From positions 1 through 64,000 of the forward strand of contig JAGNHN010000014.1 in NCBI GenBank assembly GCA_018001695.1: DNA of 64,000 bases, given 5' to 3'. Source of the stretch: Lentimicrobiaceae bacterium (lineage in GTDB: Bacteria > Bacteroidota > Bacteroidia > Bacteroidales > JAGNHN01). Made by a program: the position numbers and the translations under genes. This document shows, piece after piece, positions 1,254-13,975 of the stretch. Position 1 is the stretch's first letter. Every line of letters starts with the position of its first letter. A model generated the notes under the pieces. It did no database searches. It saw only the letters and a program-made list of their open reading frames with translations, and was not told the origin of the DNA.

Positions 1254-2479
1254 ATATGATGGATGCATGGGACTTACCCGCTGCGGGTTTTCAATATGAT
1301 CTTCCTCCGGAAAAGATCGCCTTACACCCCCTGGCACAAAGGGATGCCTCTCGGCTGTTGATCAGCAACGGAATGGGTATTCAGGAGGATGTGTTCTCCT
1401 CTCTTCCCGCCCTGTTGCCAAACAATAGCCTGCTGGTGATCAATGATACGCGGGTGGTACACGCCAGGCTGGCATTCCGGAAGGACAGTGGTGCCCGTAT
1501 CGAGCTGTTCTGCCTGGAACCGGTGGATCCTTTCACGGAAATACAACAAGCATTCGGAGCTGCATCGGGTGTCGTCTGGAAATGCCTGGTAGGCAACGCC
1601 AGGAGATGGAAATCGGGCTCGCTGGCATTAAAGGGTGAGGGATTCAGCCTGTATGCCAGCTTGGAATCGAAGCTGCCAAAAGAAGCGCTGATCCGTTTCA
1701 GTTGGGAGCCATCCGCGTGGCCCTTTGGTAAAATACTCGAATACGCCGGACAGGTGCCCTTGCCTCCCTATATTCAGCGTGACCCTATCCCTGAAGATGA
1801 TCAGCGATACCAAACGACCTATGCCGCAGCCGACGGCAGCGTTGCAGCACCTACTGCCGGACTGCACTTTACAGAGGCGGTATTCAGGGAATTGCATGCC
1901 AGGAAGGTAGATGTCGCAAGGCTCACACTACATGTGGGAGCCGGAACCTTCCGCCCTGTCACATCAGATACAGTCCGCGACCACAGTATGCACCGGGAAC
2001 AACTGCTTGTGACCATCGACAGTATACGCCACATCCTGGAACACCCCGGAAACGTAATTGCCGTTGGCACTACCTCGGTCCGGGTACTGGAAAGTCTTTA
2101 CTGGTATGGATTATCACTCCTGCAGGATCCGGACCGTCCCTTTCATATTGATCAATGGGAGCCATACCGGCAGGATAAGGACGCATGCACACGCCGTGAG
2201 GCGCTTCATGCGGTTGTTAAATATATGGAGCGCAAGGGCATCACGGTTTTGCAGGGGAGCACCCAGCTGATGATCATACCTGGCTATACCTGGCGCACCA
2301 TCGATGGTATGATCACCAATTTTCACCAGCCCGGCAGCACCTTGCTGATGCTGGTGGCCGCTTTTATCGGGGATTATTGGAAAGAGGTATACAGATACGC
2401 ACTGGATCATGGTTTTCGCTTTCTCAGCTATGGGGATGCCTGTTTGTTTCTCCCTACTGCCAAAACACAGCTTACATGA
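1250..2479 (+). CDS. queA: S-adenosylmethionine:tRNA ribosyltransferase-isomerase QueA
   Basis: QueA transfers and isomerises the ribosyl part of S-adenosylmethionine onto preQ1 at the tRNA wobble position, giving epoxyqueuosine. Family signatures are clear: VINDTRVVHARL near residue 65, YAAADGSVAAPTAGLHFT around 195-210, LTLHVGAGTFRPV, then AVGTTSVRVLES and the C-terminal TNFHQPGSTLLML. At 409 residues it is longer than the roughly 350 of the E. coli protein; the extra length lies mainly in the segment before the final motif, a layout I associate with Bacteroidota. The ATG overlaps the stop of the upstream small gene, and its own stop overlaps the mobA start (ATGA at 2476-2479), so the three genes are probably co-translated. 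Confidence 0.96.
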   Translation: MNMMDAWDLPAAGFQYDLPPEKIALHPLAQRDASRLLISNGMGIQEDVFSSLPALLPNNSLLVINDTRVVHARLAFRKDSGARIELFCLEPVDPFTEIQQAFGAASGVVWKCLVGNARRWKSGSLALKGEGFSLYASLESKLPKEALIRFSWEPSAWPFGKILEYAGQVPLPPYIQRDPIPEDDQRYQTTYAAADGSVAAPTAGLHFTEAVFRELHARKVDVARLTLHVGAGTFRPVTSDTVRDHSMHREQLLVTIDSIRHILEHPGNVIAVGTTSVRVLESLYWYGLSLLQDPDRPFHIDQWEPYRQDKDACTRREALHAVVKYMERKGITVLQGSTQLMIIPGYTWRTIDGMITNFHQPGSTLLMLVAAFIGDYWKEVYRYALDHGFRFLSYGDACLFLPTAKTQLT

Positions 2480-3102
2480 CCGGAAAGCCTGCTATCGGTG
2501 GTATCGTCCTGGCTGGTGGCAAGAGCTGTCGCATGGGAGCAGACAAAGGCAGTATCCAATTGGACGGCTGCGCCCTGGTTGAGCTTGCAGCACGTAAGCT
2601 GGGCGAATGGTGTACCGAAGTCGTCATCAGTGCGAATGATCCCACCTATGCTCGCTATGGATACCGGCTTGTTCAGGATATTTACCCCTCACATGGGCCT
2701 ATGTCCGGTCTATACAGTGCCCTGCTGGAGCTGGATTACCCGCATAGCGTGGTACTGGCTGCAGATATGCCTTTGTTTCCATCGGCCTGGCTGGGTTATC
2801 TGATATCCGAATCAAACGGACATGAGATCGTCTTACCCATCGGACCGGGCGGTTTTCCTGAGCCTTTGTCGGGTGTTTACCCCCGCATTGTTTTGCCAGA
2901 GATAGCCTATTGCCTGGAAAATGGTTTGCTTGCCATGCAGGCTTTGCTGCAGCGTTTTCCGGTACGCTGTGTCAGGGTTCCTTCAGGAGAGAATATATCA
3001 CAGGAGGATGCCTTTCTGAATGTCAACACGCCTAAAGAGCTTGAGAAACTGGCTTCACGGGGTTACTACACAAGATTCGAAAACCGTGAAGGAGGGGAAT
3101 GA
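2476..3102 (+). CDS. mobA: Molybdenum cofactor guanylyltransferase, MobA family
   Basis: MobA attaches GMP from GTP to molybdopterin to make the guanine dinucleotide cofactor used by DMSO-reductase-family enzymes. The nucleotide-binding signature LAGGKSCRMGADKG is at the N-terminus, followed by QDIYPSHGPMSGLYSAL and the metal-binding AADMP motif; the C-terminal FLNVNTPKEL is also typical. The frame is open further upstream inside queA, but the ATG at 2476 overlaps the queA stop and starts directly before the signature, so I use it (208 residues). The molybdopterin oxidoreductase at 8208-10451 is a natural client. Related nucleotidyltransferases (MobA-like CTP transferases) are the main alternative. 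Confidence 0.87.
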   Translation: MTGKPAIGGIVLAGGKSCRMGADKGSIQLDGCALVELAARKLGEWCTEVVISANDPTYARYGYRLVQDIYPSHGPMSGLYSALLELDYPHSVVLAADMPLFPSAWLGYLISESNGHEIVLPIGPGGFPEPLSGVYPRIVLPEIAYCLENGLLAMQALLQRFPVRCVRVPSGENISQEDAFLNVNTPKELEKLASRGYYTRFENREGGE

Positions 3103-4270
3103 GCAGATATGGCTGAAGGCAGCCGTCGCGGGAAGCATCTGGGCTTCAGTGGAGATCATCGCCGGCAGTGCACTTCACAATATGCGGGTTCCCTTTTCCG
3201 GGTCGCTGCTGGCGGCCATGGGGGTGATTCTACTGACGGCCTTTGCCATGCGCTGGCGCACGACGGGGATGTTCTGGAGGGCAGGATTGATCTGTGCCCT
3301 GATGAAGTCGGTCTCTCCCAGCGCAGTCATTCTGGGCCCAATGACAGGGATCCTGCTCGAGGCAGTCCTGCTGGAGCTGGGGTTCCGGATATTCAGGTTT
3401 GGCCTGGCCGGCGCTGTCTTCGGTGGTATCATGGCCGTGTCGAGTGCCCTGCTGCACAAGATCATCAGCCTTACTATCCTATATGGAAGCGATATCCTGA
3501 CCATTTATGTCAACATTTTTCATTATGCCGCAAAACAGGTCAGGGTGCCCGATGCCGGTGTGACGGAACTGTTGCTGATCCTCACTGCCGGATATGCATT
3601 GCTCGGTAGTGGGGCAGGGTACCTGGGATACCTTGCCGGAAAGAAGCAGGACCTGCAGTCTTCGGCTTCAGATAAAACCGCAGGATGGCCAGAGCGCAAA
3701 ACCGGTCCTGCTCTCGGCCTGCCGCAACATCTGGCCTGGTTTTTCCTTCATTTGGTGGTCCTACCTCTGGGGCTGGTGGCCATCAGTGTGTGGCCGATGG
3801 AAGTATACCTCCCCTTGACGGGGCTCTATCTGGTTATGGTACTGTTCAGATACCGGGGTCTTTTTCAACGCCTTGCCAACAAATCTTTTTGGATCCAATT
3901 GTTGATTGTGGCCGTATTGAGTTCCCTGTTTTTTCGTAATCCGGCGGATGACTGGACATGGATCAACCGGCCCGGTCTGCGTGTCGGACTGGAGATGATG
4001 CTTCGGGCTGTCTTTGTCGTGATCACCTTCAGGGCATTGAGTTTCGAGCTCCGTCATCCCGCCATACGTCAGTTTTTACAGCGCATCGGATTCCGGAAGA
4101 CATCCGAGATGCTGGAAGTGGCGTTCGGTATGTTACCCGCTGTCGTACAAGGATTTCCACCTGTAAGGCAGTTGTTTCTGCATCCCGTCCGGTCGCTGGG
4201 CTCCCTGGTGGTCCTGGGTGATCGATTACTCGAAGAAGTGAAATACGGTAATGTTGAAGGCGATGCCTAG
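3020..4270 (+). CDS. Polytopic membrane protein of unknown function (possibly ECF-transporter-like)
   Basis: About 416 residues with roughly eight hydrophobic segments: five or six in the first half (WASVEIIAGSAL, LLAAMGVILLTAFAM, ILGPMTGILLEAVLLELGF, TELLLILTAGYALLG), a charged linker near residues 205-230, then three more. The first half recalls substrate-binding S components and the last 100 residues recall EcfT-type coupling proteins, but this is inference only and no ATPase is nearby. The start is uncertain: ATG at 3020 overlaps mobA by 83 bases, and GTG at 3086 would shorten it by 22 residues and reduce the overlap. Its TAG stop shares the CTAG at 4267-4270 with the convergent rhodanese gene. 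Confidence 0.72.
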   Translation: MSTRLKSLRNWLHGVTTQDSKTVKEGNEQIWLKAAVAGSIWASVEIIAGSALHNMRVPFSGSLLAAMGVILLTAFAMRWRTTGMFWRAGLICALMKSVSPSAVILGPMTGILLEAVLLELGFRIFRFGLAGAVFGGIMAVSSALLHKIISLTILYGSDILTIYVNIFHYAAKQVRVPDAGVTELLLILTAGYALLGSGAGYLGYLAGKKQDLQSSASDKTAGWPERKTGPALGLPQHLAWFFLHLVVLPLGLVAISVWPMEVYLPLTGLYLVMVLFRYRGLFQRLANKSFWIQLLIVAVLSSLFFRNPADDWTWINRPGLRVGLEMMLRAVFVVITFRALSFELRHPAIRQFLQRIGFRKTSEMLEVAFGMLPAVVQGFPPVRQLFLHPVRSLGSLVVLGDRLLEEVKYGNVEGDA

Positions 4271-4917
4271 CATCCGCCTTCGGTGACCGATTGCTTTTTT
4301 CGTTTTACCGGGGCAAGCTTTTCAGGCTGAGGTGCAGCGACATCTCGTGCTATTGACGGTGCCAGCCCGCTTTCATCACGTACACGGGTCATGATGGCCT
4401 CATAATCATAGCGGGGAAGTTCGCTGAAACTGTCCGGAGAAGGAGGTGCCAGGGTGTCGCGGTTCAGCCAGGCCCTGTAACCACCCTGGAGGACGTACAC
4501 CCTTTGCAATCCAAGCTGTTGCAGCAGCATCCATGGCCCAACGGCATCCTGCTGGTCGTCACCATAGAGGACAATATCCGTACCTTCCTTGTCCAGGTCG
4601 CGTAACATCTGTAAGCCTTTCTTGTCAAGCAATACATGTACCGGAATATTCAGGGCGCCGCTAAGATGTTGTTTATCAAATTCATATCCGGGGCGGATAT
4701 CCACAAGCAGAACGCCGGAAGCTGCAGGATTATCCATCTCTTGAAGGGTATTGGCCGCATACAGCAGCGGATGCTGCCGGGTCTTGCTCAAAGCGCCCGT
4801 CAAATCATCGGTATACTGAAGGGAAGGCCTGTCCACGCTCAGCAGTCCGACAAGGATCACGATCATGAAGGCAAGCACCAGCAACAGGAGTCGGTTCAAT
4901 TCATTTGGCTTTTTCAT
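4267..4917 (-). CDS. Membrane-anchored rhodanese-like protein without catalytic cysteine, C-terminal -EGGC
   Basis: A 216-residue protein: N-terminal membrane anchor (LLLLVLAFMIVILVGLL, residues 10-26), a rhodanese domain at about 65-150 (VLLVDIRPGYEFDKQHLSGALNIP, then VYVLQGGYRAWL), and a basic tail ending in KRKKQ-xxxx-EGGC. Active rhodaneses carry a cysteine directly after the strand that here reads IVLYGDDQQ; that position is glycine, so the loop cannot form the usual persulfide. The only tail cysteine is the very last residue. The anchor orients the domain to the periplasm. It is the last gene of the psr-like operon, 13 bases after its paralogue. A sulfur-carrier or scaffold role is inference. 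Confidence 0.88.
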   Translation of the reverse strand: MKKPNELNRLLLLVLAFMIVILVGLLSVDRPSLQYTDDLTGALSKTRQHPLLYAANTLQEMDNPAASGVLLVDIRPGYEFDKQHLSGALNIPVHVLLDKKGLQMLRDLDKEGTDIVLYGDDQQDAVGPWMLLQQLGLQRVYVLQGGYRAWLNRDTLAPPSPDSFSELPRYDYEAIMTRVRDESGLAPSIARDVAAPQPEKLAPVKRKKQSVTEGGC

Positions 4918-4930
4918 GGTCTTGCAGTAT

Positions 4931-5557
4931 TTAGCATCCTCCTTCCAATTTGGTTTGCTTCTTTCGTGGAGTAAGCGGCAGGCTTTGCTGCTGGGTGACA
5001 GGTTCCCCGGGGCTCAGGGCCGGGCTCCCGGCGCCAGTGAAGAACTGGCGGGCCCCCAGGCGGCAAAGATAGCGGTCATGCTCACTGCCTGCGTCTGATG
5101 GTGAAGGCTGACGAGGTTCCAAAATCGTCTCCACCCATTGGTCCAGTCCTCCTTTCATGATATGTATATGATTCATCTTCATTCTCTTGCACAACATCCA
5201 TGCCTGTTCTGCCAGCATACCATCGGCGGAGATAAAGACAATACTGCGGGTATCATCGGCAAGTACATCCAGGAAATCAGGTTGCATTAAGGAGTCGATC
5301 GGAATATTGATACTCCCGGGCAGGCTGAAGCGGGCGAACTCGGATCCAGGCCGTACATCAGCCAACAGGAGCAGGGGATCGCTGTCGATGATCATCTTCG
5401 CCACCTGGTCGGTTGTGTAATATCTTGTCTGGTCTTTGATTTCATCCAGCAGCTGATCCGGGGGTATTTCAGCAACATTGACCCGCATGGGGAGCAGCCA
5501 CAGCATGATTCCGGCCACCACGGCCAGAGCAGCAATCAGGAGATAGCGTGTATTCAT
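4931..5557 (-). CDS. Second membrane-anchored rhodanese-like protein, C-terminal -EGGC
   Basis: A 208-residue paralogue of the next gene: N-terminal anchor (LLIAALAVVAGIMLWLL), rhodanese domain (LLADVRPGSEFARFSLPGSINIP and IHIMKGGLDQW), then a long low-complexity linker and a tail ending RKKQTKLEGGC. The active-site loop reads IVFISADGML, with serine where the catalytic cysteine should be. There are cysteines in WMLCKRM, in the linker (YLCRL) and at the C-terminus. It lies 12 bases after the YeeE-like gene in the same operon. By analogy with Sud, which feeds polysulfide sulfur to PsrA in Wolinella, these proteins may pass sulfur to the reductase, but the chemistry must differ from a normal rhodanese. 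Confidence 0.88.
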   Translation of the reverse strand: MNTRYLLIAALAVVAGIMLWLLPMRVNVAEIPPDQLLDEIKDQTRYYTTDQVAKMIIDSDPLLLLADVRPGSEFARFSLPGSINIPIDSLMQPDFLDVLADDTRSIVFISADGMLAEQAWMLCKRMKMNHIHIMKGGLDQWVETILEPRQPSPSDAGSEHDRYLCRLGARQFFTGAGSPALSPGEPVTQQQSLPLTPRKKQTKLEGGC

Positions 5558-5569
5558 AGCGGGTGGGGG

Positions 5570-6181
5570 TTAGTATTCGACTTTACGGACACGTTTTTGA
5601 ATCAGCGCGGTTACATAGAACGCCATCAGCGCCATGACGATCAGGAGTAAGGCAAATAATCCGGCAGGAATATGGAGGGATTCATATACCCGGACACCGC
5701 CCAGGGAGTTCTTTTCGAACAGTGTCTGCAGCATCGGGAAGGCTTCGGAGAATATCAGGATCCCCAGAAACATCCCGCCGGTAAACACCAGGGCGTCGAT
5801 CTTGCCGATCGCCAATCCGCATATACTGGTCCCCGGACAAAAACCACCCAGGATGAAGCCCAGACCCATCACCACACCCCCCACGATGGCAGCCTGGATG
5901 TAATATGGGTTTACATATAACATATTGTAATCCAGCCACCCGGCATGGTTAAAGAAGAGTAGTCCACTCATCGCGGTAATGGCTGCGGTGAAGAATACGC
6001 GCAAAACGGTGAAGTCATATCCATAGAAAACACCGGCCAGCACCCGGGAGGAGGAAAATCCGGAGGACTCCAGGACAAACCCAAAAGCGATGCCTATCAG
6101 CAGGGCGATCAGGTTGTTCCAGTTTCCATCTATCAATTGGTTCGGAATAAGAGGTCCCATGGCATGTATGATTAGATCCAA
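5570..6181 (-). CDS. YeeE/YedE-family permease, C-terminal half
   Basis: Polytopic protein of 203 residues with five to six membrane helices and the family cysteine motif GGFCPGTSICG near residue 112. YeeE/YedE (TsuA) proteins take up thiosulfate or related sulfur compounds, passing the substrate between conserved cysteines. Here the family is split into two half-size proteins, this one and the gene just upstream, which it overlaps by 10 bases. An internal methionine at residue 8 would remove the overlap. Its position between the NrfD-like subunit and the rhodaneses points to handling of sulfur for the reductase. The substrate cannot be read from the sequence. Confidence 0.88.
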   Translation of the reverse strand: MDLIIHAMGPLIPNQLIDGNWNNLIALLIGIAFGFVLESSGFSSSRVLAGVFYGYDFTVLRVFFTAAITAMSGLLFFNHAGWLDYNMLYVNPYYIQAAIVGGVVMGLGFILGGFCPGTSICGLAIGKIDALVFTGGMFLGILIFSEAFPMLQTLFEKNSLGGVRVYESLHIPAGLFALLLIVMALMAFYVTALIQKRVRKVEY

Positions 6182-6702
6182 AGTTTTCTGAAGAAATAGG
6201 CAAAGATGTATCCAGAGCCGAAGATAGCGAGCATGGTCACGAAGCCGGCGGTGCTCAGGACGGCCATCCCACTGAGGGCGGCTCCGCTGGTACAGCCACG
6301 TCCCAGCTGTGAGCCGAAGCCGAACAGCATGCCACCGGCAGCAGCTGCCAGCAAGCGCACCCGCGAAGTGATGCGGGGAGCGTGTTCCACTTTGAACTTC
6401 AGCCGGCCTGCCAGTAGTCCGGACAGAAAAGCACCAGCCAGGACGCCGAGTACTTCAAAGACCAGCCAGTTGTTGAGCGGATGTTCATCATCGCTCAGAA
6501 ACTGACTATAATAGGCTGATTCTCTTGCATGATCCGGAGCAACAACATCCACTGTCGTCACAACGGCGCTTTTGACCGCTCCGCTGGCGCCCAGTCCCCG
6601 GCCAGTAATGAAAAAGGTGGCCAGCAAAATCAGGCCCAGGAGAAACCCGCCAAGGTAGGGGTTCAGATAGGGTTTTTTTTGATCTGATATCATGATATTC
6701 AA
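6172..6702 (-). CDS. YeeE/YedE-family permease, N-terminal half
   Basis: A 176-residue membrane protein: first helix at about 17-33, then a periplasmic loop of about 50 residues, helices at about 80-100 and 115-135, the cysteine motif GRGCTSGAALSG near residue 134, and a last helix. The family is linked to thiosulfate and sulfur-compound transport. It probably forms a heterodimeric permease with the following gene, because each half supplies one conserved cysteine motif. It starts 16 bases after the NrfD-like gene and is co-transcribed with it. The internal ATG at residue 4 is an equally possible start. Confidence 0.88.
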   Translation of the reverse strand: MNIMISDQKKPYLNPYLGGFLLGLILLATFFITGRGLGASGAVKSAVVTTVDVVAPDHARESAYYSQFLSDDEHPLNNWLVFEVLGVLAGAFLSGLLAGRLKFKVEHAPRITSRVRLLAAAAGGMLFGFGSQLGRGCTSGAALSGMAVLSTAGFVTMLAIFGSGYIFAYFFRKLWI

Positions 6703-6718
6703 TGTTTTATCTTAACAA

Positions 6719-7660
6719 TCAATAGAGATAACGGGTAAGTTGACCTGCCTCCACCATGATAAACCGGAACACCAGCCCCCCAAACAAAATCAAAAGAGAG
6801 GGGATGGCAACAGGCACATGGTAACCCCGGATCTCCAGTATTTCGAGGATAGCAGGAAATATCAGCCCCAGGACGACGACAAAGCCCCAGAATGAAACAG
6901 TAAAGGGACCGCCCAGGAAAAGATTTGCGGCTTCGATCTGGACAGCCGAGCTTGCCAGAAAACCCATAAAGAGGTGGACGATGAAAAACAATTCAATACC
7001 GATCAGTATAATGTCGATGCGGCTTAGCAGCCGTCGCTCTGCAGGATTTTTGGACATCCACATGGTTGCTGCGACACCTGTCGATAATCCGGACACCAGA
7101 AAGAGGGGGCCCAGCAGAGAGGTGTTCCACAAAGGGCGGGCGTTGAAGGCCGAGAGCAGGATACCGGTATAGATGCCCAGGATGATGGACAGGATGATCA
7201 GGGCCCAGGCCAGGGGTTTTCTGTTCCGGATCACCAATCCTTCAAAACGCTCCAACCACGCCCAGCGCCAGCGCCAGGATGGAATGGCTTCTTTCAGGTA
7301 GCTGGCGACCCAGAGGAAGGACAGTGGGGTGATGATCATCAGTACCCAGGCTCCCCATGACATGGGTGACTCCAGGCGGATCGTCATGTACAGGCGCCAG
7401 AAGTACAGCTCGTGTTTTAAATCCAGGAACAAAGCCAGCAAGCCTAGCACAAGGGCTCCCGGAACCAGAAACGGGGCCCATTTGACCACAGTCGGCATTT
7501 CCTTTTCTTTTCCGAGAATGGTATACAGGGCCGCAAAGAACAATATGCCGGCTGCCAGACCTCCCAGAAACAGATAGACCGGGATATGCCAGTGCCATAG
7601 GTTCAGGTATGGGTCGATACCCGGGTTCATTCGTCCACTTATCAGGATCTCTTCTTTCAT
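6719..7660 (-). CDS. psrC: NrfD/PsrC-type quinone-interacting membrane subunit
   Basis: A 313-residue integral membrane protein with about eight helices. The start region DPYLNLWHWHIPVYLFLGGLAAG is characteristic of NrfD/PsrC, as are the GAWVLMIITPLSFLW and GLSTGVAATMWM segments. The family carries no cofactor itself but exchanges electrons and protons between the quinone pool and the ferredoxin subunit of CISM-type enzymes. It sits 17 bases after psrB, matching the usual A-B-C order. It could serve a polysulfide, thiosulfate or tetrathionate reductase; the sulfur genes downstream favour a sulfur substrate, though which one is not visible. Confidence 0.9.
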   Translation of the reverse strand: MKEEILISGRMNPGIDPYLNLWHWHIPVYLFLGGLAAGILFFAALYTILGKEKEMPTVVKWAPFLVPGALVLGLLALFLDLKHELYFWRLYMTIRLESPMSWGAWVLMIITPLSFLWVASYLKEAIPSWRWRWAWLERFEGLVIRNRKPLAWALIILSIILGIYTGILLSAFNARPLWNTSLLGPLFLVSGLSTGVAATMWMSKNPAERRLLSRIDIILIGIELFFIVHLFMGFLASSAVQIEAANLFLGGPFTVSFWGFVVVLGLIFPAILEILEIRGYHVPVAIPSLLILFGGLVFRFIMVEAGQLTRYLY

Positions 7661-7677: not shown

Positions 7678-8211
7678 TTACATTAAAAAGAACAACTGGG
7701 GTTTGGTACCTGCTTCCGGCGCCAGCACCTTATACTTACGGTTTCGCAAGGCCAGGCTTACCTCACTGTTGGGATCATCCAGATCGCCGAAATACATACA
7801 TTTCGTAGGACAGACCTCAACACAGGCAGGCTTCTGCCCTTTGCGTATGCGGTGTATGCAGAATGTGCATTTATCGACATAGCCTTCCGGGTGGGAATAC
7901 CTGGCATCGTAGGGGCAGGACTGGATACAGGCACCACAGCCAATGCATTCCTTTGCAGTGACGAGGACAACGCCCCCTTCCACGATGTGGCTGGCACCGG
8001 TCGGGCAGCAGCGGACACAAGGGGCATTATCACAATGATTGCAGCGCTCAGAACGCAGTTCCAGCTCCACATTTGGATAGGTTCCATCGACCGTCTCAGC
8101 GATCCAGTCACGGCAATAGCCGATGGGAACATTGTTTTCGGTCTGGCAGGCAACGACGCAATCGCTGCATCCGACGCATTTACGCGTGTCAATGGCCATG
8201 GCGTACCTCAT
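7678..8211 (-). CDS. psrB: Four-cluster ferredoxin subunit, PsrB/PhsB type
   Basis: A 177-residue iron-sulfur protein with four cysteine sets: CVGCSDCVVAC with a partner cysteine in IGYC, CNHCDNAPCVRCCP, CIGCGACIQSCP and CTFCIHR with ACVEVCPTKC. These would bind four [4Fe-4S] clusters forming a wire between the membrane quinone subunit and the molybdenum subunit. There is no signal peptide; in this family the subunit is exported by hitchhiking on the Tat-targeted catalytic partner. Its ATG overlaps the psrA stop (8208-8211), indicating translational coupling and equal stoichiometry. Confidence 0.93.
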   Translation of the reverse strand: MRYAMAIDTRKCVGCSDCVVACQTENNVPIGYCRDWIAETVDGTYPNVELELRSERCNHCDNAPCVRCCPTGASHIVEGGVVLVTAKECIGCGACIQSCPYDARYSHPEGYVDKCTFCIHRIRKGQKPACVEVCPTKCMYFGDLDDPNSEVSLALRNRKYKVLAPEAGTKPQLFFLM

Positions 8212-10451
8212 GCTTCTACCTCCTTTCCGGGATTCTCAGTGACAAATGTGACGAAATTGCCCCGCATGCCGGTGCCGCCCATGAGGGGATCCAGCATGAC
8301 ACGGGTGATGAGTTCAGAATCATTGATGCCTTTGCCGAAGGCCCGTGTAAGCCATTTGTTGGAATGTCCGAACCCATGGACGATGTAAACCGAATCCCAG
8401 CGGATCCTTTCCGTTATCCTCACCTTCACGGGAAACGAGGAAATGACCTCATCCTGGTTCTTGAGCCATACATACTGACCATTTTGGATATCCCAGACTT
8501 TGGCCACCTTGGGATTGACCCAGAGGTTGTTTTCCTCCATCAGGTCGGTGAGGTTGGGGTTATTGGCGGTACGGCTGAAGGTATGCATCGGAGCGCGGCC
8601 ATAGTTGAGGCGGTAAAAACCTTCAGGTGGTTCAGGATGTGGGGTATATACCGGCATCGGATCAAAACCTGTGGCAGCAAGCTCTGCTGAATACAGTTCG
8701 ATTTTCCCGCTATCTGTGGGAAACTCATAATCCTCACCCTTTTCCAGATAAAGGCTGCGTGCCTGGCGGTCCATCTTTTTGACTCCCAGCCGTTGCATTT
8801 CTTCCAGTGAGGAACCCAGTTCTTTCAATTGCCAGTCAAGTACTTCCGTATAATCCTCGTAATCAAAGAAATCGCTTAAACCGAGCCGGTGACCAAGTTC
8901 TCTGGCCATCCACCAGGCCGGTTTTGTATCGTAGAGTGGCGCCACTGCCGGCATGCGCAGCGCGATCCAGGGATCACGCTGGGGAGAATCGCGCAATTCA
9001 TCATAGCGCTCCAGGTAGGTGCATTCAGGGAAGATGACATCGGCATAGCCGGTGATCTCCATGGGCATCGTATCCACCACCAGCATGAAGTCGAGGGCTT
9101 CCATGGCTGTGCTCCATTGTTTCTTATCGGGCATGGTCAGCGGAAGGTTGGTGCCTGCCACGATCCATGCATGGATGCGGTGGGTGTTTTCCGGTGAAGG
9201 AATAGAGGCTTCGATCAGGGCATTGGCAACGGCAAGCCCGGCAAACGGAAAGCGTCCGTTATGCGTGTCACGCCAGGTCCAGGAAGGCTTGGGATAAGGA
9301 GGATGCGGAAAATCAGGAACGGAAACATTGTCCTTGAAGTAGATACCTCCCCTTCGCCCATAGCTTCCGAGTAGGGCATTCAGGATGGCGATGGCCCGTG
9401 AACGCTGGGTATCATCACCATACCAGGTCACATGACGGCCTGGGTGGATGATCACGGAAGGGGCGGCATCGGCCATGGTGCGGGCTGTCTCCCGGATCAG
9501 ATGGGGTTCAATGGTTGTAATACCGTAGGCCCACTCAGGTGTAAAGGGTTGTACATGGCGCTTCAGTTCTTCAAAACCACTGGCGTAGCGGGAAATGTAC
9601 TCTTTGTCGTACCATTCCTCATTGATAAGCACATGCATCCATGCCAGTAACAAAGCCATATCTGTAGCAGGCTTTATCGGCAACCAGTAACGCGATTTGC
9701 TTGCAACAGTGGAGAAGCGGGGGTCTACGGTGATGAGCTGAATACCATTGTCGATGGCGTCCGACATCTCCTGGACCTGACTGTTGTGCATGTTTTCACC
9801 CAGGTGGGAGCCGATCAGTACCATACAGCGGGCATCCCGGATATCCAGTGGTTCGGGTGAACCCAGTCCGGATCCGAAGGTGAGGGCGAAACCTACCTCA
9901 CGTGGGCCGCGGCACTGGGCAAAGGAAGGGGCGACGATATTTGCAGAACCCATGGCTTTGAGGAGATGCGAGAAATGCGTCCCGGCGGATCCGTGGTTGA
10001 AGAGTGCGATGCTTTCCGGCCCATGGCGATCAGCAATCTCCCGCAGTCTTTGCGTCACAAGATCGAGTGCTTCCTCCCAGCTGGCTTCGCGGAAGGTCTG
10101 CTTCCCATTGTCTTCCACCCTGATAAGTGGCCGTTTCAGGCGGTCTCTGTCATGAAACATCCCGACGCCACCAGTTCCACGCGGGCATAAGCGTCCGTTG
10201 CAATGCGGGTCTTCCGGATGGCCAATCACCTTTTTGATGTCCCCGGACCCGTCGCTATAAGCCCATCCTGCACATTTCCAGAAACATACTTCGCAATAGG
10301 TCGGCGTGCGGCTGAGGGTATCCCTGTCCATGGCAGTAAGCCGTGTTGCCAGGGAAGATCCTTTGGCCCAACGCAGGGTTCCGGCCCCGATAGCCAGACC
10401 TCCTAAACCCAGTGCTGAAATCCTGATGAATTCTCTTCTTGAGCTTTTCAT
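8208..10451 (-). CDS. psrA: Molybdopterin oxidoreductase, polysulfide/thiosulfate reductase type catalytic subunit
   Basis: A 747-residue DMSO-reductase-family enzyme. The N-terminus carries a twin-arginine signal (SRREFIRISALGLGGLAIG), so it is exported folded to the periplasm. A proximal [4Fe-4S] site is formed by C53, C56, C60 and C89 (YCEVCFWKC, later GRLCPRG). The probable molybdenum ligand is C180 in AQCRGPREVGF; cysteine there fits the PsrA/PhsA group rather than serine (DMSO reductase) or aspartate (NarG). The C-terminal molydopterin dinucleotide-binding domain includes RAPMHTFSRTANNP. First gene of the operon with psrB, psrC, the split permease and rhodaneses. Polysulfide, thiosulfate, tetrathionate or arsenate-like substrates remain possible; context favours sulfur. 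Confidence 0.88.
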   Translation of the reverse strand: MKSSRREFIRISALGLGGLAIGAGTLRWAKGSSLATRLTAMDRDTLSRTPTYCEVCFWKCAGWAYSDGSGDIKKVIGHPEDPHCNGRLCPRGTGGVGMFHDRDRLKRPLIRVEDNGKQTFREASWEEALDLVTQRLREIADRHGPESIALFNHGSAGTHFSHLLKAMGSANIVAPSFAQCRGPREVGFALTFGSGLGSPEPLDIRDARCMVLIGSHLGENMHNSQVQEMSDAIDNGIQLITVDPRFSTVASKSRYWLPIKPATDMALLLAWMHVLINEEWYDKEYISRYASGFEELKRHVQPFTPEWAYGITTIEPHLIRETARTMADAAPSVIIHPGRHVTWYGDDTQRSRAIAILNALLGSYGRRGGIYFKDNVSVPDFPHPPYPKPSWTWRDTHNGRFPFAGLAVANALIEASIPSPENTHRIHAWIVAGTNLPLTMPDKKQWSTAMEALDFMLVVDTMPMEITGYADVIFPECTYLERYDELRDSPQRDPWIALRMPAVAPLYDTKPAWWMARELGHRLGLSDFFDYEDYTEVLDWQLKELGSSLEEMQRLGVKKMDRQARSLYLEKGEDYEFPTDSGKIELYSAELAATGFDPMPVYTPHPEPPEGFYRLNYGRAPMHTFSRTANNPNLTDLMEENNLWVNPKVAKVWDIQNGQYVWLKNQDEVISSFPVKVRITERIRWDSVYIVHGFGHSNKWLTRAFGKGINDSELITRVMLDPLMGGTGMRGNFVTFVTENPGKEVEA

Positions 10452-10807
10452 ATTTGATAATTAATCCTTTACGCTGATTCAAAGCATACAATAGATGCAA
10501 ATAATTATCTATATGTATTCTGATTCAAAATTAGGGACTTATCTTAAACCGGGCCTCAAACGAAATAAGCATTGACAATATATTGATGTGTTTGATTAAC
10601 AGGTCAATATTATTAGAAGCATTTAAAGTGGGTGATTTATCAGATCTTTAAATATCAGTTTAACAATACGATACATCTTTCTTTAGAATCTATATAAATT
10701 GCAGCTGAATGGGTCATCCTGCGGATTCAGGAACCGTTTGAAGCGCCCCCGGGTGTTCGAGTGCCTAAAATTGTACCTTAGTAAGCCGCATTACAGCAAG
10801 GAAAGTG
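10452..10807. promoter_or_regulatory. Divergent control region between psr-like operon and Rieske/cytochrome b genes
   Basis: An AT-rich stretch of 356 bases without a gene, lying between two oppositely directed respiratory operons, so it should hold both promoters. I see no exact TAnnTTTG element on either strand. Visible symmetry includes TTGAT-N6-GTCAA at 10592-10607, the perfect palindrome CAATATATTG at 10576-10585, and the arms ATTGAC (10571-10576) and GTCAAT (10603-10608). These resemble, but do not match, FNR/CRP-family sites: the canonical FNR spacing is four bases. A redox or sulfur-responsive regulator is plausible; none is encoded nearby. Confidence 0.45.
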
Positions 10808-11224
10808 ATGAAATCCAGGATGGCAGGGTGGCGTTTGGACCGCCGTAATTTTCTCAGGATGACAGGTTACCTGTTGTTTTTGCCATTGATCTACCTTACC
10901 GGGCGCACTTTGAAACAAAAGGAGGCACTGCAGGGAGCGCGTGAATGGCACCTGCCCATGCCTGCTCCGGGTGAAGTGGCGTTTCATGGCCCTGTGATAT
11001 TGATCAATGAGGGTAGTGACAAATCTGTCCGGGCCTATGCTTCAGCATGCACCCATCTGGGTTGCAGGATTGAGCGTCTTGAAAACAATCTGCTCATCTG
11101 CCCATGCCATGGCTCACGTTACGACCTGGATGGCAAACCGGTTCAGGGTCCTGCCGTGAAATCATTGCAAAGTCTACCCTTGGAAGTAATGGAAGACACC
11201 CTCACCGTTAACGTCACTGTCTGA
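10808..11224 (+). CDS. Rieske iron-sulfur protein with Tat-like signal
   Basis: A 138-residue Rieske [2Fe-2S] protein. The cluster-binding motifs are CTHLGC and CPCHGSRYD, each giving one cysteine and one histidine ligand plus the disulfide cysteines typical of high-potential Rieske proteins. The N-terminus RLDRRNFLRMTGYLLFLPLIYL looks like a twin-arginine signal kept as a membrane anchor. A GTG lies directly before the ATG at 10808; I chose the ATG. The cytochrome b gene follows after 3 bases, so the two form a Rieske/cytochrome b complex that oxidises quinol (or reduces quinone) at the periplasmic face. Confidence 0.93.
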   Translation: MKSRMAGWRLDRRNFLRMTGYLLFLPLIYLTGRTLKQKEALQGAREWHLPMPAPGEVAFHGPVILINEGSDKSVRAYASACTHLGCRIERLENNLLICPCHGSRYDLDGKPVQGPAVKSLQSLPLEVMEDTLTVNVTV

Positions 11225-11227
11225 GCC

Positions 11228-13975
11228 ATGAAGCAGGTCGACCACCTTACGTACAAACCGTGGCGCTTTCTATCCATATCATTGGGAACATGGAGCATTG
11301 CTGCCTTTCTGATTTGCGTTCTGAGTGGCATCATCCTCACGCTTCCTTTTGACATTAATAATGCGTATGCCAGCATCAGCCGCCTGATGATCCTGAATCC
11401 GGCTGCAGCCTTTTTCCGTAACCTGCATTACTGGAGCGCACAGGTCTTTCTCATTATCACCCTCTTACATTTCATTGACTACCTGCTCCGTTATCCTTTG
11501 GGCAGTATTACTTATGGGATATGGGCCCGCCTGGTCTTCTCCCTGCTGGTAGTGTTCTTTGTCATGTTATCGGGATTCATGCTTAAATCAGACCATGACA
11601 GTTTACAGGCCTACCGCATCCTGGACGCCTTGTTTGACGCCCTGCCCCTTGCCGGGCCGGCGCTGGGCGATTTCCTCCTCGGTAAGGAGGCAGATATGCA
11701 GATTGTTTATGTTCACCACATTGCTACGGCCACATTGATCCTGCTCATAATCATTTTTGAGCATACGCGTAGAATTTGGGGAAACTGGAAAGCCTGGACA
11801 CTCAGCCTGGTTGCGCTCTCTTCTTTGTCGCTTTTCCTCAGTGCTCCTTTACACGACAACCTGGAACCCCTGGTACGGGGGCCCTGGTATTTCCTGGGCT
11901 TGCAGGAACTACTGCATTGGCTGCATAAAGGCGTCTGGGCCTGGTGGCTTTTGTTCTTGCTGTTGGCCGGCCTGCTGATCCTGCCCATGCTGAAGATACC
12001 GTCTTACCGTTGGTTACGTAATGCCTTGCTTGTGTCAGGAATGGTATATGCTATCATCACCCTGGAGGCCTTTCTTTTCCGGGCTGAAGCCTGGTCTTTC
12101 TCGCTCCCCTGGAATGAGTCCCGCGCCATGCAAAGACTCTTTCCCATGAGAGCCGGCGGTCTGGGATGGATGGCACAGAACACGGCACTTGCCAGCCAAT
12201 CCTGGCATACGAAGGATGGGAGGCATGAATCCTGTATGAACTGCCATACCGGTATGACGGGTTTCTCTCCTTCCCATGATCCTCAGGCACTCGGTTGTTA
12301 TATCTGTCATCGCGGCAATCCCTATAGTATGAACAAAACGCTGTCGCACAGGGGCATGCTCACTGTTCCCGGGAACCTGGACCAGGCTCAGCTTAGCTGC
12401 GGGACGCCATCCTGCCATCCCGACATCACGGTCCGGGTGGGCGCCTCCATCATGACGACCCTGAGTGGGCTGGTGACCGTCAACCGCTACGTTTTTGGAG
12501 AATCAGACACCCTGGATGCCCTGGTGCATATCGCCGGTCTGGGCCAGACAGCCGCCGACAACCACCTGCGGGATCTCTGTGCGTCCTGTCATCTGGGGAG
12601 TAAGAAAGTCGCCCCCGGCCCCATGGATGAGATGCATCTGGGTGGTGGCTGTAATGCCTGCCACCTGCATTATGATGCCCGTGCCAGAGCAGCTTTCATT
12701 GCACGGCGGACCCATCCCGGCAGGGATACACTGCTTCCGTTGGTGCATCCCAGGCTGGACCTTCAGATTACCAACGACCGTTGCTTCGCCTGCCACAGCC
12801 GCTCCGGAAGGATCTCCACCAGTTATGAAGGCTGGCATGAAACAACATGGCAGGCTGGTCAGGTGGCCGGACAATCGGGATTCAGGGTGCTGGAAGACAA
12901 ACGCGTATTTCGATATGTCTTTGCCGATGTTCATCACAGCAAGGGCCTGGAATGCATAGATTGCCACCTTTCATGGGAATTGATGGGCGACGGCAGCCTG
13001 TATGCCCATAAAGAAGACCAGGTCAGGATACGTTGTACGGATTGTCATCCTTCAAGCTATCAGGCATTTCGTTTCAATGACAGGACCGATGCCGATGCCC
13101 GGAAAATACTGGCCTTGCAGACCCCGTCCACCAGTAAGTCCTATCTGCAAACAGCCCTGGGCGGTTATACCCTCTGGAACACGGGTAGAGACAGTAATGG
13201 CACTACTTACCTTCAGGGGAAAGTGAACGGCCGGAGTTACATTTTAAAGCCCAGCGCACCGGATTGCCAGCAGGGTACGGTTCATGAAAAGCTCAGTTGC
13301 GCGGCGTGTCATACAGCATGGACACCCACCTGCATAGGTTGCCACAACACATACGATCCCAGGGTTCAGGGTTTTGATCTGCTTGCCCAGAAGGACATCA
13401 AAGGAGCCTGGTCTGAGCATATCGGTTTGTTCTTATCCGATGTTCCCACCTTGGGCGTGCGCATTAACAAAACCGGGGAGGCGGAATATGTACCCTGCGC
13501 TCCCGGCATGATCCTGACCGTGGACCGGGGCAGCTACCGGGGTAAGCCGGATCAGGATGTGGCCTACAAGCGGCTGTTTGCACCGGTTCAGCCACATACG
13601 GTTCAGGCTGTGGGGCTGGATTGCAAGGCATGTCATAAGAATCCTGTGGCACTCGGCTTTGGAAGAGGCGAACTGACTTACGATATCCGCGATGGTAAAG
13701 GATACTGGCGTTTCTCGCCCCGCTTTGCCAACCGCATTGAAGATAACCTGCCGGAAGATGCCTGGACCGGCTTTATGGATGGCCGTAAGGGACAAGCAAC
13801 CCGGCATACACTGCGGCCTATGTCAACGGAGGAGCAGCAACGCATGCTGCGTGTCGGGGCCTGCCTGCATTGCCATGCGTCCACCTCGATGGTTATGAAG
13901 GAAAGTCTCCGCACCTATGAGCAGATGCTCAAGCAATTGCCGCCACAATGTATCCTCCCAGTATTCCAGAAATGA
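11228..13975 (+). CDS. Cytochrome b fused to multiheme cytochrome c
   Basis: A 915-residue fusion. Residues 1-300 are a cytochrome b/b6-type membrane domain with the two heme-ligating histidine pairs H67/H81 (HX13H) and H164/H179 (HX14H, the spacing of cytochrome b6) plus further helices to about 290. From 336 on it is a periplasmic multiheme cytochrome with 11 CXXCH motifs (cysteines at 336, 357, 451, 475, 519, 576, 603, 691, 702, 799 and 879) and one CX4CH (C391). With the Rieske protein just upstream it should form an alternative quinol:cytochrome c oxidoreductase whose electron acceptor is built in. The partner enzyme is not shown by the sequence; the psr-like operon is the divergent neighbour. 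Confidence 0.92.
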   Translation: MKQVDHLTYKPWRFLSISLGTWSIAAFLICVLSGIILTLPFDINNAYASISRLMILNPAAAFFRNLHYWSAQVFLIITLLHFIDYLLRYPLGSITYGIWARLVFSLLVVFFVMLSGFMLKSDHDSLQAYRILDALFDALPLAGPALGDFLLGKEADMQIVYVHHIATATLILLIIIFEHTRRIWGNWKAWTLSLVALSSLSLFLSAPLHDNLEPLVRGPWYFLGLQELLHWLHKGVWAWWLLFLLLAGLLILPMLKIPSYRWLRNALLVSGMVYAIITLEAFLFRAEAWSFSLPWNESRAMQRLFPMRAGGLGWMAQNTALASQSWHTKDGRHESCMNCHTGMTGFSPSHDPQALGCYICHRGNPYSMNKTLSHRGMLTVPGNLDQAQLSCGTPSCHPDITVRVGASIMTTLSGLVTVNRYVFGESDTLDALVHIAGLGQTAADNHLRDLCASCHLGSKKVAPGPMDEMHLGGGCNACHLHYDARARAAFIARRTHPGRDTLLPLVHPRLDLQITNDRCFACHSRSGRISTSYEGWHETTWQAGQVAGQSGFRVLEDKRVFRYVFADVHHSKGLECIDCHLSWELMGDGSLYAHKEDQVRIRCTDCHPSSYQAFRFNDRTDADARKILALQTPSTSKSYLQTALGGYTLWNTGRDSNGTTYLQGKVNGRSYILKPSAPDCQQGTVHEKLSCAACHTAWTPTCIGCHNTYDPRVQGFDLLAQKDIKGAWSEHIGLFLSDVPTLGVRINKTGEAEYVPCAPGMILTVDRGSYRGKPDQDVAYKRLFAPVQPHTVQAVGLDCKACHKNPVALGFGRGELTYDIRDGKGYWRFSPRFANRIEDNLPEDAWTGFMDGRKGQATRHTLRPMSTEEQQRMLRVGACLHCHASTSMVMKESLRTYEQMLKQLPPQCILPVFQK

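Follow-up and report, generated by a model that had tools for sequence, protein, structure and literature searches.

Two adjacent rhodanese-fold proteins of a Lentimicrobiaceae bacterium lack the loop cysteine and share a conserved cysteine-ending tail

The window analysed here is a stretch of 64,000 nucleotides of contig JAGNHN010000014.1 from a Lentimicrobiaceae bacterium (phylum Bacteroidota, assembly GCA_018001695.1). Its subject is a pair of adjacent genes encoding RhoA and RhoB, two small proteins of the rhodanese fold that end in cysteine and lie at the end of an operon with sulfur-related neighbours. The two proteins comprise the following features.

4267..4917, minus strand: RhoB, 216 aa, membrane-anchored rhodanese that has lost the loop cysteine, with a C-terminal EGGC
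4549..4563, minus strand: site of the lost active-site loop of RhoB, GDDQQ, residues 119-123, placed by alignment
4270..4377, minus strand: flexible basic arm of RhoB, residues 181-216, ending KRKKQSVTEGGC, with a low predicted local distance difference test (pLDDT) score and a GGC that is near-invariant in relatives
4931..5557, minus strand: RhoA, 208 aa, membrane-anchored rhodanese that has lost the loop cysteine, with a C-terminal EGGC
5216..5230, minus strand: site of the lost active-site loop of RhoA, SADGM, residues 110-114, S-N-[GD]-[DS] in relatives
4934..5023, minus strand: flexible basic arm of RhoA, residues 179-208, ending RKKQTKLEGGC, predicted disordered

Both proteins match the Pfam Rhodanese domain PF00581 (60.9 and 52.5 bits, cut-off 22.2) and carry an N-terminal transmembrane helix. 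Neither has the catalytic cysteine that characterises a rhodanese sulfurtransferase, the loop reading IVLYGDDQQ in RhoB and IVFISADGM in RhoA, and the tails end in PVKRKKQSVTEGGC and TPRKKQTKLEGGC. The terminal cysteine is the sole cysteine of the RhoB chain; RhoA contains Cys124 and Cys165 in addition, neither of which is conserved. A first-pass annotation of this DNA had described two adjacent, membrane-anchored rhodaneses with EGGC ends and no loop cysteine, and the open reading frames (ORFs), Pfam matches, loops and tails agree with that description in full. A 416-aa membrane protein encoded convergently with RhoB (3020-4270, plus strand) has no Pfam match at E<=0.001.

The EGGC tails on these two proteins are real and far from chance. 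A scan of both strands of the 3.24-Mb genome that contains the window for GGC followed by a stop codon returned 41 DNA matches, compared with 32 for a reversed control pattern. Among the 36 of these 41 that were translated, RhoA and RhoB are the only credible genes ending in GGC, the other such frames being two spurious ORFs of 93 aa. The GGC tail is absent from all 1058 non-rhodanese ORFs of at least 200 aa in related loci, 11 of which end in cysteine. Together with the conservation of the tail in relatives, these counts rule out a chance origin.

That conservation was assessed by a census with hidden Markov models built from the domains of types A and B (relatives of RhoA and RhoB, respectively) with the tail excluded, which covered 115 loci of the same order and of named genomes. 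Draconibacterium mangrovi GM2-18 and Maribellus maritimus 5E3 also have the operon. The 80 named loci had been ranked by full-length comparison with the tail included; some contigs of metagenome-assembled genomes overlap the unnamed set, and identical proteins were counted once. A tail was scored as a terminal (G)GC followed by zero to two residues. By this measure the terminal cysteine is kept in 99 of 100 type-A relatives and in 85 of 89 of type B (86 if one CPDLN variant is counted), in proteins that are otherwise 25-50% identical, and the alignments are invariant only at the final G-C and at a few rhodanese positions. A loop cysteine is found in 3/100 type-A proteins, all of a single lineage (FYCNDD), and in 2/89 of type B, which rules out its restoration in relatives. 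The first-pass annotation had staked its proposal on a terminal cysteine that is conserved and a loop cysteine that stays lost, and both expectations hold. A contig scan with a single window protein as query found no relatives.

A profile search across the phylum (395 genomes) added 42 operon copies with their context from distant families. All 42 end in cysteine or in cysteine plus one residue, often as KKKEGC, REGC or RMGC rather than GGC; many of the profile matches behind these copies stopped short of the tail. Since the glycine is replaced (EGC, MGC) while the cysteine is kept, the cysteine is the fixed residue and the second glycine is not. Rare copies have lost the terminal cysteine (L084 6022-6636, minus strand; L132 10569-11201, plus strand; L091 8306-9427, plus strand), with the neighbouring paralogue retaining it in each case, and some of these losses may be assembly frameshifts.

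This pattern bears on the notion that the tail is a processing or sorting tag, either cleaved between GG and C to leave a carrier with a GG thiocarboxylate, following the logic of ThiS and QbsE, or serving as a sorting signal at the C-terminus. Precursors ending in -GG-Cx are known and GGC tails resemble them, and tails common to the proteins of one genome, as described below, would be expected of a recognised tag. However, many relatives have E, M or D in place of the second glycine but keep the cysteine, which disfavours processing at this site; adenylation requires ATP, of which there is none in the periplasm; and the proteins are already anchored at their N-terminus and have a rhodanese rather than a ubiquitin-like fold. 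A tag of this kind is thus scarcely credible.

AlphaFold2 models built on alignments of 50-51 sequences predict the rhodanese domain with confidence (whole-chain mean pLDDT 84 and 90, the latter for RhoA), and Foldseek comparison with the PDB returns mainly rhodaneses. The last 30-36 residues are predicted to be disordered, the arm of RhoB being almost without secondary structure, which accords with the flexible tail surmised in the first-pass annotation. A median of 58 residues follows the rhodanese domain; the median net charge of the 12 that precede GGC is +4. The loops of the relatives are conserved in new forms, S-N-[GD]-[DS] in type A and G-x-D-Q-L-Q in type B; because they are thus non-random, the pocket of both types is probably still under selection. 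This would suit a relocated catalytic cysteine, whereby the tail folds back and its terminal cysteine occupies the vacant rhodanese pocket, in the same chain or in a partner, for ordinary rhodanese chemistry. The conserved loops (S-N-[GD]-D in type A, G-N-D-Q-L-Q in type B) point to such a selected pocket, and the arm is long enough to reach it, but the tail is predicted to be undocked as well as disordered, it also occurs on tandem rhodaneses whose loop cysteine is intact, and the co-variation between paralogues lies in the tails and not in the domains. Relocation is therefore considered unlikely.

The co-variation in question is that tails are matched within a genome. At L087 the tail of RhoB is KPIAHKKKKQAAAGGCE, and those of RhoA (RPIAHKKKKQAAAGGCE) and of a third rhodanese, RhoC (IPVHKKKKQAAAGGCE), are almost identical to it, and at L086 a single sequence, VPVKKKQVGGGCE, is common to all three rhodaneses. 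In a set of 56 non-redundant loci, comparison of the 15 residues that precede GGC gives 55% identity for RhoA with RhoB of the same locus, 24% for RhoA with RhoB of different loci and likewise 24% for the RhoA tails of different loci (permutation p about 5e-5 for the same-locus likeness). The domains show no same-locus effect, with identities of 48% (A-A), 38% (B-B), 29% (A-B, same locus) and 28% (A-B, different locus). Codons at agreeing tail residues are alike in 304 of 629 cases, where codon usage in the operon itself predicts 280, and codon identity exceeds 80% in only one of the 56 loci; the matched tails therefore do not stem mainly from recent copying of DNA, and gene conversion is disfavoured. 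Given tails that co-vary on domains that do not, with uncopied codons, something probably reads both tails; most simply, both arms would be recognised by a single partner surface.

RhoC is the product of a third operon gene found in other genomes, a tandem rhodanese that has a loop cysteine, often has a lipoprotein-like N-terminus and carries a tail matching RhoA and RhoB of the same genome. The tandem rhodanese of L087 has a cysteine in only one of its two loops. The tandem rhodanese genes are located as follows.

L080: 11281-12402
L086: 7238-8326
L087: 6303-7445
L155: 7082-8212
L174: 10955-12076

A separate rhodanese type, whose loop reads C-K-K-G-K-R and whose acidic tail ends in GGC, is encoded at L149 (631-1203, plus strand) and L158 (1352-1870, plus strand).

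Matched tails with one terminal cysteine each, on two or three proteins per locus, would also be in keeping with a structural or redox tether, in which intermolecular disulfides between the terminal cysteines of RhoA, RhoB and the tandem RhoC hold an assembly together or sense the redox state. In several distant genomes, however, there is just one tailed protein, fused to YeeE, and the stretch examined contains no other rhodanese (e.g. L244, L257, L270). The glycine before the cysteine and the sulfur-enzyme partners suit a carrier better, so that a tether is judged decidedly unlikely.

These partners are encoded in the window by a same-strand operon that runs from a molybdenum (Mo) enzyme through a 4Fe-4S subunit, an NrfD subunit and two halves of a YeeE/TsuA channel to RhoA and, last, RhoB. 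The genes upstream of RhoA and two divergent neighbours are listed below.

5570..6181, minus strand: YeeE1, first half of the split YeeE/TsuA (Sulf_transp) channel, PF04143, GG-x-C-P-G motif
6172..6702, minus strand: YeeE2, second half of the split channel, PF04143, aligned to 8j4c/6leo
6719..7660, minus strand: NrfD/PsrC membrane subunit, PF03916
7678..8211, minus strand: PsrB-type 4Fe-4S subunit, from the domain search
8208..10451, minus strand: PhsA/PsrA-type molybdopterin reductase, PF00384, Tat-type signal SRREFI
10805-11224, plus strand: Rieske protein, divergent from the operon
11228-13975, plus strand: cytochrome b/multihaem c fusion of 915 aa, after the Rieske gene and divergent from the operon

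The region 5570-6702 has the Sulf_transp domain and pore cysteines of a YeeE/TsuA channel, with PF04143 on both halves. The YeeE1 cysteine motif is present in 162 of 165 homologues and a stricter YeeE2 motif in only 103 of 165; C137 of YeeE2 aligns with the pore cysteine of TsuA, Cys293 by count on the alignment (8j4c/6leo). The nearest solved relative of the Mo enzyme is that of Thermus thermophilus (2vpw, E=1.6e-194, the next at 2e-47). Its score against the NCBIfam PhsA equivalog, 457 bits, falls below the cut-off of 694, and it is therefore called PhsA/PsrA-like and assigned no substrate. From its Tat-type signal SRREFI it works outside the cytoplasm, and RhoA and RhoB, each with a single helix and a basic N-terminus, are expected to lie on that side as well. 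The Rieske protein and the 915-aa fusion make up an unusual bc-like quinol module and are a probable electron-transfer partner, an association that is less conserved, with a Rieske relative <=6 kb from 27 of 100 loci. A MobA-like protein encoded not far from the Mo enzyme (2377-3102, plus strand), recognised by eye from the motif LAGGKS-R-MG-DK, is probably a nucleotidyltransferase for the Mo cofactor.

Across the type-A loci the YeeE halves are adjacent to type A in 100/100, with NrfD nearby in 91, PsrB in 85 and relatives of the Mo enzyme in 82, so that the co-occurrence with YeeE and molybdopterin oxidoreductases anticipated in the first-pass annotation is found. Many of the loci without NrfD, PsrB or the Mo enzyme are contig ends or represent an octaheme variant. 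In other families YeeE1 carries RhoA as a C-terminal fusion, and there the redox module consists of cytochrome b561 and a cytochrome of the octaheme tetrathionate-reductase family (TIGR04315, 568 bits, cut-off 375). Outside family f77, 34 of 41 octaheme-positive genomes have a type-A rhodanese on the contig of the octaheme gene, no more than about 4 kb away from it; a 35th octaheme genome (G282) is missing from the profile list, but its protein is fused and ends in SGGC. In f77, where SoxY is common, the two octaheme loci that were read both lack YeeE and a tailed rhodanese. Two rhodanese-domain genes beside other, divergent YeeE copies (L275, L281) have no tail. A divergent branch ending in RMGC lies beside YeeE at L252, L253, L255 and L273, with neither a Mo enzyme nor an octaheme gene in the stretch examined.

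The alternation of the PhsA/PsrA-type and octaheme modules means that two unrelated enzymes acting on S-S bonds share the same arm proteins and channel. It also counts against a role in metal or cofactor handling, in which the cysteine would bind a metal or insert sulfur into the Mo cofactor in the manner of an FdhD-like maturation factor. The adjacent Mo enzyme and the nearby MobA-like gene would fit such a role, whereas the same tail beside an octaheme module without a Mo enzyme disfavours it, as does the fact that Mo-cofactor sulfuration is cytoplasmic; it is considered very unlikely. The first-pass annotation had envisaged a relay specifically between YeeE and a PsrA-type reductase. The YeeE end of this relay is near-constant and sometimes fused to the carrier; the PsrA end is not specific, its place being taken by the octaheme cytochrome in other families.

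Sud, the polysulfide-sulfur transferase of Wolinella, is a periplasmic carrier of the rhodanese fold that serves a PsrABC-type reductase through its loop cysteine. RhoA and RhoB resemble it in fold and in lying beside such a reductase but lack the loop cysteine. DsrC carries sulfur on a cysteine of a flexible C-terminal arm; it is cytoplasmic and has two arm cysteines, whereas RhoA and RhoB have the rhodanese fold and one conserved arm cysteine. SoxY is likewise a periplasmic carrier with a glycine-flanked cysteine at its extreme C-terminus, differing in that RhoA and RhoB are membrane-anchored rhodaneses with zero to two residues after the cysteine in place of the GGCGG arm. The SoxY domain PF13501 has no match in RhoA or RhoB, which match only PF00581, and SoxY was not matched in the window genome in a phylum-level search that did match other genomes of the phylum. 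Membership of any of these three families is rejected, as each fails on a defining feature (PF13501 and fold for SoxY, loop cysteine for Sud, DsrC fold and two arm cysteines for DsrC). SoxY genes of the same phylum end in GGCGG in 10 of 10 loci read; the window tails have GGC without the final GG. The exact SoxY arm motif, SGGCGG, ends two loop-cysteine rhodaneses of another genome of the order (L094, 9630-10175 and 13156-13644, both minus strand).

The cysteine of the SoxY GGCGG arm binds sulfur (PMC6067878, citing Sauve 2007), and transfer from it to cysteines in the channel of SoxT, a YeeE-like protein, is considered conceivable (PMC11582611). Variants of soxY occur beside YeeE/D with dmsAB and others beside the octaheme tetrathionate reductase gene otr (PMC11237559), the same kinds of partner as those of RhoA and RhoB. 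The pairs YeeE/TsuA-YeeD/TsuB and SoxT-SoxY likewise join a Sulf_transp channel to a small cysteine sulfur carrier (PMC11582611, PMC11073785), although YeeD/TusA is cytoplasmic, whereas here the carrier would lie outside and the channel is split into two genes. LbpA of the sHdr pathway is a further sulfur-pathway carrier with a cysteine near its C-terminus that is often glycine-flanked (PMC6067878), but it has a lipoyl domain and belongs to a cytoplasmic pathway. The best explanation is that RhoA and RhoB are swinging-arm sulfur carriers on a rhodanese scaffold, with the GGCGG arm of SoxY as the closest functional analogue; the arm-carrier idea of the first-pass annotation is supported, while its analogy with Sud and DsrC gives way to SoxY. 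No published description of GGC-tailed rhodaneses without a loop cysteine was found in the open-access literature, to which the search was confined, so that this absence is weak evidence.

It is proposed that RhoA and RhoB are swinging-arm sulfur carriers on catalytically dead rhodanese domains, which is the best explanation of the data and a reasonably probable one. They would face the periplasm, held to the membrane by the N-terminal helix, and their arm, basic, flexible and about 30-40 residues long, with the cysteine last or next-to-last after Gly(-Gly), would carry sulfane sulfur as a persulfide or thiosulfonate, like the cysteine of the SoxY arm. The arm would move sulfur between the split YeeE/TsuA channel, at its periplasmic mouth, and the active site of the periplasmic reductase of the same operon, namely the PhsA/PsrA-type Mo enzyme in the window and the octaheme tetrathionate-reductase-type cytochrome in other families, with the rhodanese domain now acting as a docking or positioning scaffold. 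One tail sequence per genome would then be kept because the same partner surface must read both arms. The sulfur load of the cysteine, the contacts with YeeE and the reductase and the direction of flow are inferred, and the adjacency and fusion of RhoA to YeeE, the alternating redox partners and the alignment of the YeeE2 pore cysteine count in favour of a carrier.

Several observations weigh against the carrier proposal. An enzyme dedicated to loading the arm was not identified. YeeE proteins are usually importers that work with a TusA-like partner in the cytoplasm, and no such partner was noticed here, no systematic search having been made. The bulk charge of the tails is uncorrelated with that of Mop or YeeE; for PsrB the correlation is rho=-0.27 (p=0.02, uncorrected). 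At L242, a contig end, RhoA and RhoB adjoin NrfD-PsrB-Mop with no YeeE between. Finally, 18 of 27 tandem rhodaneses that keep the loop cysteine carry the tail, which indicates that the arm adds to the loop cysteine and does not merely replace it; the replacement pictured in the first-pass annotation accounts for the arm only in part.

A wider reading, put forward tentatively as one possibility, is a phylum-wide sulfur relay, a 'Sox without SoxYZ', in which one to three arm proteins per genome with a shared, genome-specific, cysteine-ending tail would pass protein-bound sulfane sulfur between YeeE and interchangeable redox modules of the PhsA/PsrA type or the octaheme type. If this is true, the natural substrate of the octaheme tetrathionate-reductase family here would be sulfur on a protein arm and not a free anion.

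In RhoA and RhoB, a swinging arm like that of SoxY would have arisen convergently, on a domain that has lost its own catalytic cysteine. Many Bacteroidota in which no such carrier had been recognised would gain a defined operon for handling sulfur. The arm also offers an answer both to what the sulfur exchange partner of the YeeE channel is on its outer side and to what the substrate of the octaheme 'tetrathionate reductases' is in these bacteria. The matching of arms within a genome would be an unusual natural record of co-adaptation that may be used to find the receptor surface. A system of this kind across the phylum would link three poorly understood protein families.

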